A DNA stretch of 12,882 bases from Nitrospinae bacterium RIFCSPLOWO2_12_FULL_45_22. GTDB taxonomy: Bacteria > 2-12-FULL-45-22. Shown piece by piece: positions 1,766-7,392 of the stretch. Numbering within the stretch: the stretch's first letter is position 1; every line of letters begins with the position of its first letter. The notes beneath the pieces were generated by a model. That model saw only the letters and a list, made by a program, of their open reading frames with translations, was not told where the DNA came from and did not search any database. The position numbers were made by a program, and so were the translations under genes. The stretch covers positions 1-12,882 of the forward strand of contig MHDQ01000289.1 in the NCBI GenBank assembly GCA_001803565.1, in the 5' to 3' direction.

Positions 1766-1852
1766 TGGTGCCGAAGAGGGGACTCGAACCCCTACGGGAA
1801 TACACCCACCACCCCCTCAAGATGGCGTGTCTACCAGTTCCACCACTCCGGC
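1766..1852 (-). tRNA. tRNA-Leu (anticodon GAG)
   Basis: This is an 87-base class II tRNA with encoded CCA (1766-1768 on the complementary strand) and discriminator A. The acceptor stem pairs GCCGGAG with CTTCGGC with one G-U pair. The D arm contains TGGTAGACACG. The anticodon stem CCATC/GGTGG holds the loop TTGAGGG, placing anticodon GAG at 1816-1818. The long variable arm has a GGG/CCC stem, and the T arm is AGGGG-TTCGAGT-CCCCT. It reads CUC and CUU leucine codons. Confidence 0.96.
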
Positions 1853-4843: not shown

Positions 4844-4966
4844 GCGGTCAGCTATCAGCCGTCAGCTTTCAGCTAAAACCAGGGGGGTCAGGGTATAGAG
4901 ATCAATAAGCTGACCCATCACACCTGATCCCTGTCGCTGACCGCTGATTGCTGAAAGCTTATTTTT
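4844..4966. repeat. Palindromic repeat between convergent genes, possible terminator
   Basis: The region contains nested inverted repeats: GCGGTCAGC (4844-4852) with its complement at 4936-4944, GCTTTCAGC (4865-4873) with 4950-4958, and an inner GGGTCAG/CTGACCC pair (4885-4891 and 4910-4916). On the + strand the right arm is followed by TTATTTTT (4959-4966), so it could end tldE transcription. It also shares the words GGGGTCAGGG and CTGATCCCTG with the element at 5812-5970, which suggests a dispersed repeat family. Confidence 0.6.
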
Positions 4967-5738
4967 AATGGCCCTTAAAATTGGGTTTGCGCTTGTTTAA
5001 GAAGGCATCCATACCCTCTTTCTGGTCTTCGGTAGCAAAGAGTTTAGCCGTCGCCTCGATACAAAATACCATATCATCACCCCCTAGTTCCCGATTAGCG
5101 GCCGTTTTAAGCAAGCTAACAGCTAAAGGGGCGCTTTCCATAATCTTCTTAGCTACCTCTACCGCCTTTCCCATCAACTGGTCATGAGGTACTACCAGGC
5201 TAATTAAGCCAATCCGCTCAGCCTCTTCGGCAGATATAGGCTCCGCTGTCATCATAAGATAGGAGGCCTTATTTCTGCCTAGCAGATCGAATAAACGGCC
5301 AATAGCAAAACCGGGCACCAGCCCGATCCTGGGCTCTGGCACCCCAAACTTGGCCTTATCGGAAGCAATGACAATATCAGAGGCAAGGCATAATTCCAGG
5401 CCACCACCCAGGGCTAGGCCACTCACGGCTGCTATTATAGGTTTAGGGAGCTTTTCCATACGATTAAACAAGGTCATAACATCCCGGGCAAAGCGTTCCA
5501 CATCAACCATGGTCTTGATCTGCTGGAAACCACTAATGTCTCCACCAGCACAGAAGGCCCTCCCAGCGCCAGTAAGGATCATTACCCGTACCTGCTCATC
5601 TTGTTCCACTAAATCCATAGCTGAACGCAGACCCTTTCTGATACCATGGCTCAAGGCGTTGAGCCGCTCTTCATAATTCAAGGTTACGTATGCAATACCA
5701 TCCTTCGCTTCATACAGAACCTGATCCAATTGCTGCAT
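4965..5738 (-). CDS. Enoyl-CoA hydratase/isomerase (crotonase family)
   Basis: The 257-residue protein has the standard crotonase length. The oxyanion-hole segments AFCAGGD (61-67) and ALGGGLEL (109-116) are present. Both glutamates used by true enoyl-CoA hydratases are found at the expected places, E115 and E135 (VPEPRIG), so hydratase activity is plausible; the segment after E135 is PGFAIGRL rather than the common PGAGGTQRL. It would hydrate a 2-enoyl-CoA to a 3-hydroxyacyl-CoA in the cytoplasm; the substrate cannot be read from sequence. The ATG at 5736-5738 follows a GAGGAGGAGAG ribosome site. It is divergent from the dehydratase gene at 6121, and the intergenic region holds a miniature transposon. 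Confidence 0.88.
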   Translation of the reverse strand: MQQLDQVLYEAKDGIAYVTLNYEERLNALSHGIRKGLRSAMDLVEQDEQVRVMILTGAGRAFCAGGDISGFQQIKTMVDVERFARDVMTLFNRMEKLPKPIIAAVSGLALGGGLELCLASDIVIASDKAKFGVPEPRIGLVPGFAIGRLFDLLGRNKASYLMMTAEPISAEEAERIGLISLVVPHDQLMGKAVEVAKKIMESAPLAVSLLKTAANRELGGDDMVFCIEATAKLFATEDQKEGMDAFLNKRKPNFKGH

Positions 5739-5803: not shown

Positions 5804-5978
5804 AAAGGCAGGTAACAGTTCACCGGGGTCAGGGATCAGTTGTCAGGTATGCCTTTCCTCAAGGACCTCTACGGGCTATTAACCCTTCGCGCTATCTACA
5901 ACTAGCGATAACTATACAAAATTTAAAGTATTTTCCTGACCCCTGTTAACTGAACCCCGTGAACTGTTACAAAGGCAG
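5804..5978. mobile_element. 159-bp miniature transposon (MITE) with 8-bp target duplication
   Basis: The element spans 5812-5970. Its ends are 36-bp terminal inverted repeats, 5812-5847 and 5935-5970, matching at 29 of 36 positions with the outer 12 bases (GTAACAGTTCAC) perfect. It is flanked by a perfect 8-bp direct repeat AAAGGCAG at 5804-5811 and 5971-5978. It encodes no protein, so it would need a transposase supplied elsewhere. Ends beginning GTAA together with an 8-bp duplication are features described for the IS66 family; that family link is an inference. A small internal palindrome CGCTA/TAGCG lies near the centre. It sits between the divergent hydratase and dehydratase genes. Confidence 0.88.
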
Positions 5979-6120: not shown

Positions 6121-7392
6121 ATGAAGACTATCATTGAGGCAAGAGATACTATGGAGGCTGTTTGCGCTGCCCTGGAGAAAATTTTAGCGCACCGTAAATC
6201 CCGACCTACGGTACCTAGTGAGACATTGTATTACCAATTGGTGCTGGATTATTTCCAAAAGATCCTTAATGCCAGGGAAGAAGGGAAATTTATTGTGGGC
6301 CATACAGTCATGGCCCCTACCGAAATTTTTTATGCCATGGACCTGGTGCCTATGTCTTTAGAAAATGTATCCAGCATGATGGCCATCCTTCTTAATAAAT
6401 ATGGAGAATTTCTGGGCTCTGCCTCAGCCTTTGGATTAGCGCCAGAGACCTGCTCGGCCCATCGGATGTTGGCTGGCGCCGTTTTACGGGAAGCTGTTAC
6501 CAGCCCTGACTGCATCGTCTGGAGCAGTCAGGTATGTGATAATACCTCTAAGAGTGGTGATGCCTTGCTGGATTTATATGGGATACCGGGATTTTTTTTG
6601 GACCGGCCCTATAAATATACCGCCGAGGCCGTTAGATACTATACCCGGCAGATGGAAGAGCTGGTAGAGTTCCTGGAGGATCAGAGCGGGAAAAAGCTCA
6701 ATCAGGATAAGTTAGCTGAGGCGGTAGACTTATCAAATCAGGTAATCAATATCTATCGCGAAATATATGAGCTAAGAAAGGCCATCCCAGCACCTATGCG
6801 GAACCGTAATCTGGTCAACCAGAGTACTATTGAAGGTATTTATTCTGGCACCCAGCAAGGGGTTCACTTCCTTGAAATGGTGCGCGATGAAATCAGACAG
6901 AATGTAGTGGCTGGCAAAGGTGTAGTTCCAGAAGAGCGATATCGCTTACTTTTTCTCTTCTTACCTCCATTTTATGAGATGAAGATATTGGACTGGCTAG
7001 AGAAGGAGCAGGGGGCAGTATCGGTCATGGAGCCGTTCATATCGTATTTTTCTCCTGGGCAGATGGACCCCCAAAGACCACTAGAAAGTGTAGCTGCTAA
7101 AACTTTTTATCGTTGCTTAGCAAAGCCTATGCATGGGCCAGCCGATCCCTTTATAGATGATGCATTAAAGATTGCCCATGAATTTAAGGCTGACGGTGCG
7201 GTCTACTTTGCTCATATTGGTTGTCGGCAAGCCTGTGCCCTTATCCGAACATTAAAAGATAGGTTGAAAGAAGAACTAGATATGCCTACCCTGGTTATTG
7301 ATGTGGATATCATGGACCCATCCCTTTCTTCGGGCGAGGAATTGAGGGATAAGTTTGAGAGGTTTTTTGAAATCCTGGATGAGAAGAAATAG
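6121..7392 (+). CDS. 2-hydroxyacyl-CoA dehydratase / benzoyl-CoA reductase family subunit (HgdB/BcrC-like)
   Basis: The 423-residue protein belongs to the HgdB/BcrC/FldC family, whose members hold a [4Fe-4S] cluster and carry out radical dehydration or aromatic-ring reduction of CoA thioesters after activation by an ATP-using partner. The three cysteine positions expected for the cluster are present: C111 in PETCSAHR, C139 in QVCDNTS and C368 in the IGCRQAC segment. The C-terminal stretch VIDVDIMDPSLSS followed by a conserved helix is also typical. The start has a strong AGGAGGAGAGAGG ribosome site. Family enzymes normally work as two related subunits plus an activator ATPase, but neither partner is encoded here. 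The dehydrogenase, dodecin and ABM genes that follow suggest an anaerobic acyl-CoA pathway. Substrate unknown. Confidence 0.87.
   Translation: MKTIIEARDTMEAVCAALEKILAHRKSRPTVPSETLYYQLVLDYFQKILNAREEGKFIVGHTVMAPTEIFYAMDLVPMSLENVSSMMAILLNKYGEFLGSASAFGLAPETCSAHRMLAGAVLREAVTSPDCIVWSSQVCDNTSKSGDALLDLYGIPGFFLDRPYKYTAEAVRYYTRQMEELVEFLEDQSGKKLNQDKLAEAVDLSNQVINIYREIYELRKAIPAPMRNRNLVNQSTIEGIYSGTQQGVHFLEMVRDEIRQNVVAGKGVVPEERYRLLFLFLPPFYEMKILDWLEKEQGAVSVMEPFISYFSPGQMDPQRPLESVAAKTFYRCLAKPMHGPADPFIDDALKIAHEFKADGAVYFAHIGCRQACALIRTLKDRLKEELDMPTLVIDVDIMDPSLSSGEELRDKFERFFEILDEKK

Follow-up and report, generated by a model that had tools for sequence, protein, structure and literature searches.

What is the 159-bp non-coding element that lies between two divergent genes of Nitrospinae bacterium RIFCSPLOWO2_12_FULL_45_22, and what could have moved it there? 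The window that we analyzed, 12,882 nt in length, is on contig C289 of the host genome, a 3.67-Mb draft of 321 contigs that is 85% complete. The initial annotation of the window described the element as an intact miniature transposon with IS66-like ends and an 8-bp target duplication, inserted fairly recently between two acyl-CoA genes. The sequence and a repeat search bear out this anatomy, and the placement is also right (Table 1). Both ends begin GTAACAGTTCAC, a GTAA start, and the 36-nt arms are complementary at 29 of 36 positions (81%), the outer 12 nt being identical. The exact 8-bp copies flank the element on both sides, and no ORF of at least 80 aa lies inside it. The right end also holds an inner second copy of the terminal motif, which the annotation had missed. 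An Rfam search of the window matched nothing at the element; its sole match was a tRNA gene (1769-1852, minus strand).

Table 1. The element and its surroundings, in window positions.
Feature	Positions	Strand	Basis or remark
A-type MITE, 159 bp, non-coding	5812-5970		boundaries common to family members
Left 8-bp target duplication copy, AAAGGCAG	5804-5811		direct read; 8-bp length confirmed family-wide
Right 8-bp target duplication copy, AAAGGCAG	5971-5978		direct read
Left 36-bp terminal inverted repeat, GTAACAGTTCACCGGGGTCAGG...	5812-5847	+	repeat search
Right 36-bp terminal inverted repeat, inward reading GTAACAGTTCACGGGGTTCAG...	5935-5970	-	repeat search
Inner second copy of terminal motif in right end, CAGTTAACAGGGGTCAGG	5935-5952	-	pairs with 5816-5833 at 89%
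Enoyl-CoA hydratase/isomerase (ECH_1), flanking, outside element	4965-5738	-	ATG 73 nt from element
2-hydroxyacyl-CoA dehydratase D-component (HGD-D), flanking, outside element	6121-7392	+	ATG 150 nt from element

The element is a genuine member of a repeat family, far beyond what chance would produce. BLAST with the 159 bp against the host genome returned 91 matching stretches, in which the two ends of one element may count separately, and full-length copies are 71-90% identical to the window element. A search of the 3.67-Mb draft for the end motif GTAACAGTTCACNGGG, allowing up to 2 mismatches, gave 87 matches versus one for a reversed-pattern control; a sister pattern, GTAACCGTTCACCNGG, gave 104 versus 4 in its control, and the two lists overlap. 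There are two sub-families, A (GTAACAGTTCAC, which includes the window element) and C (GTAACCGTTCAC), whose ends differ at a single position among the outer 12. Among 66 distinct convergent end pairs on the stretches of the host genome that were examined, the 8-bp direct repeats are perfect in 17 and have at most one mismatch in 25. When the flanks of 24 pairs were profiled, positions 1-8 agreed in 22-24 pairs and neighboring positions in 3-10; as these pairs had been preselected for at most one mismatch, the informative part is the sharp edge at 8 bp. Flanks of ends that are not partners agreed equally well in only 1 of 552 comparisons. What the initial annotation would have counted against a miniature transposon, a lack of other copies or copies without its boundaries and duplications, is clearly not what the genome shows, as the motif matches and perfect pairs attest, and copies with the same boundaries occur at different sites.

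A REP/REPIN-type repeat would also be short, palindromic and mostly intergenic. However, the exact 8-bp target duplications with their sharp boundary already contradict such an origin, and defined 12-bp termini recur in several genomes. REP elements are not known to make such target duplications. We consider this explanation extremely improbable.

By crude ORF calls, most host-genome copies occupy short intergenic gaps flanked by codirectional genes, which fits a tolerance of insertions there. One copy, on contig C302 (5874-5985), is a 112-bp C-type element that together with its 8-bp duplication (120 nt) sits in frame within an ORF and adds 40 residues; the later part of this ORF is GvpL/GvpF (PF06386, E 4e-39). 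This element holds GTCATTCTGAGCGAAAGCGAAGAATCTC between its ends, and a 518-bp A-type element of contig C227 holds a similar stretch, so that a similar internal repeat is carried in both sub-families. A 1860-bp end pair on contig C81, whose duplication has 2 mismatches, was considered as an IS and rejected, as it contains what by eye are SurE-like and L-isoaspartyl O-methyltransferase-like proteins and no transposase-like ORF.

The position of the window element raises the possibility that it was domesticated into a hairpin with a regulatory or insulating role between the divergent genes. Its predicted folding is better than that of all 200 shuffles (z -4.85), although the terminal inverted repeats alone explain the fold, and one weak promoter-like site (9/12) inside the element points toward the hydratase gene. 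Promoter-like sites are nevertheless near chance, with 2 found versus 0.7 expected, a terminator search of the element was negative, and most copies sit in unrelated short spacers. Domestication is therefore quite unlikely. The window element probably has no dedicated function, and the effect on expression of the neighboring ECH_1 and HGD-D genes that the initial annotation suggested is no more than a possibility.

As to age, the initial annotation had taken the intact duplication at 5804-5811 and 5971-5978 as a sign of fairly recent insertion. The nearest relative of the window copy is 90% identical, and if each line has changed by about 5%, we estimate a probability of about 0.44 that all 16 duplication bases would remain unchanged. 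An intact duplication is thus expected about 4 times in 10 at this identity and is no proof of recent insertion, leaving the case for one weak. We read the window copy as an insertion now established in the intergenic spacer between the two divergent genes.

The family extends to distant genomes. When GTDB genomes were scanned for exact matches to the 19-base end pattern GTAACAGTTCACNGGGNTCAG, 32 stretches were found, compared with about 2 expected by chance by our estimate. The main carriers are four MAGs: PFIF01 (Deltaproteobacteria CG_4_8_14_3_um_filter_43_13; G098), Candidatus Magnetocorallium (G099), Desulfobacteraceae CSMAG_2403 (G100) and Zixibacteria CSMAG_1030 (G101). The first three have 130-160 bp elements with perfect or one-mismatch 8-bp duplications; G101 has one 360-bp end pair whose flanks differ at 2 of 8 bases. 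A match in Duganella was set aside as probably due to chance, being an isolated end with no partner. Searches of plasmid and phage records with the element, and of viral contigs for the end pattern, gave no match. The nearest relative genome examined belongs only to the same order as that of the window.

Two full-length relatives in G098 are 81% identical in DNA to the window element. They are 99% identical to each other and occupy two different sites; at one the duplication is perfect (AAATATTG), and at the other it has a single mismatch (AGAAGGAG / AAAAGGAG). A small tree places them among the host-genome copies, with low to moderate support. The PurH proteins of G098 and the window's genome are only 53% identical, which makes shared descent of a non-coding element at 81% identity unlikely. 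Transfer of the A-type element between lineages is the better reading of these sequence comparisons, and the element may have moved together with its helper. Mis-binning is an unlikely source of the G098 elements, because the end motif is present on many contigs of that genome.

Which transposase might recognize these ends? The host genome has a single gene matching PF03050 (IS66 transposase), a 5′ fragment on contig C275 that encodes zf-IS66 and part of the DDE domain, followed in frame across a short N gap by HD_5. The residues flanking the N stretch repeat, and this junction has the look of an assembly join. The tnpC ATG is preceded, 133 bp away, by a perfect C-type end (GTAACCGTTCAC) that points into the gene; with 52 forward ends in 3.67 Mb, we estimate the chance of an end at this position at about 0.3%. 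Intact single-ORF IS66 elements with similar ends and exact 8-bp duplications are present in other genomes: five copies of 1492-1494 bp in G048, with ends GTAACCATTCAGGGGG, and one of 1584 bp in G423, with ends GTAATCGTTCAGG / GTAACCGTTCAG. Their TnpC proteins are 37-39% identical to the C275 fragment. ISDge4, of the ISBst12 group, has ends GTGACTACTCAGCA / GTAACTGCTCAGCA and an 8-bp repeat (PMC12898284).

The IS66 elements of other genomes have GTAAC..TTCA and an 8-bp duplication in common with the window-type ends. The C-type end at tnpC matches the A-type end at 11 of 12 outer bases and the other IS66 ends match at 8-10 of 12, but A-type ends differ from every IS66 end examined at inner positions. 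The related ends and duplications in G048, G423 and ISDge4, together with the C-type end at tnpC, make an IS66 assignment likely by analogy, more directly so for C-type than for A-type ends. To this extent the IS66-like ends of the initial annotation stand. Of the full-length IS with matching ends that it had proposed to look for, the searches gave no more than the C-type-ended tnpC fragment; an autonomous element with A-type ends was not found in the genomes searched.

The search for such a helper was broad. The genomes searched for TnpC comprised 98 relatives together with 395 members of the phylum of G098 and 77 from that of G104, and plasmids were searched by protein; none of these gave a helper with A-type ends. 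Among the places examined, no end pair of IS size carried a duplication. The A-type carriers G098, G100 and G101, incomplete drafts with dozens of end-motif matches, gave no match to PF03050. IS66 elements with GTAACTACTCAGG ends are present in G099. In that genome, eight contig-end stretches start or stop inside the 3′ part of tnpC with GTAACTACTCAGG after it, which points to a multicopy IS66 having broken the assembly.

The missing helper can mean that it was lost from the drafts, or that the transposase is of another kind. Another DDE transposase, perhaps one not yet described, may mobilize the A-type elements and likewise make 8-bp duplications; the likeness of their ends to IS66 would then be confined to the outermost bases. 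The abundance of the end motif in three genomes with no detected IS66 transposase is what such an enzyme would explain, as is the failure to find an A-type autonomous element. Against it are the near-identical C-type ends directly preceding the host IS66 tnpC, the outer bases and duplication length common to IS66 elements elsewhere, and the 66 unpaired ends, beside which no candidate ORF recurs. We regard a transposase of another kind as possible but doubtful. The absence of an A-type helper is weak evidence against IS66, since the drafts have gaps and MAG assemblies tend to drop multicopy IS. A MITE also need not share a genome with its helper. In archaea, MITEs and their helpers often have only terminal repeats of less than 20 nt in common (PMC3852290), so a helper could be missed.

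We therefore favor IS66, at a probability of about 0.7, with the 159-bp element being a non-autonomous MITE served in trans by an ISBst12-like, single-ORF TnpC from a helper outside the assembly. This DDE transposase would recognize the GTAACAGTTCAC... ends and insert the element, and host repair would then duplicate 8 bp of the target. Elements of the ISBst12 group, such as ISDge4, resemble the window element in ends starting GTAAC or GTGAC and in 8-bp direct repeats. Unlike the window element, which has no coding content, they are autonomous, with a gene for a transposase (about 1.5 kb in those found here), and their ends differ from it in inner sequence.

The window family is a new one of a known kind, the MITEs, and is probably driven by IS66. 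Prokaryotic IS-derived MITEs are likewise short and non-coding, with terminal inverted repeats, target duplications and many copies, and often only their terminal repeats resemble the helper (PMC3852290). The family differs from these in that it spans several distant lineages and in that a helper sharing its ends did not turn up in our searches. MITECca01 of Cardinium (PMC9769881) is also an IS-derived bacterial MITE with many copies, but it comes from another IS (ISCca4) that is not IS66-like. Text searches of the literature gave no paper on a MITE family with IS66-like ends, and none of the five papers containing a 12-base end motif, judged by title, concerned transposable elements. MITEs with IS66-like ends seem little described.

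Several rich hosts in which no IS66 gene was detected invite a more far-reaching speculation, in our view an unlikely one, that the GTAAC[A/C]GTTCAC elements form a single large superfamily of MITEs that bacterial phyla have exchanged and an undescribed transposase has spread. The missing helper of the A-type elements poses a well-defined question, one that a complete genome could answer. A non-coding element about 80% identical in hosts whose PurH proteins are 53% identical points to very small mobile DNA being exchanged between distant uncultured bacteria.
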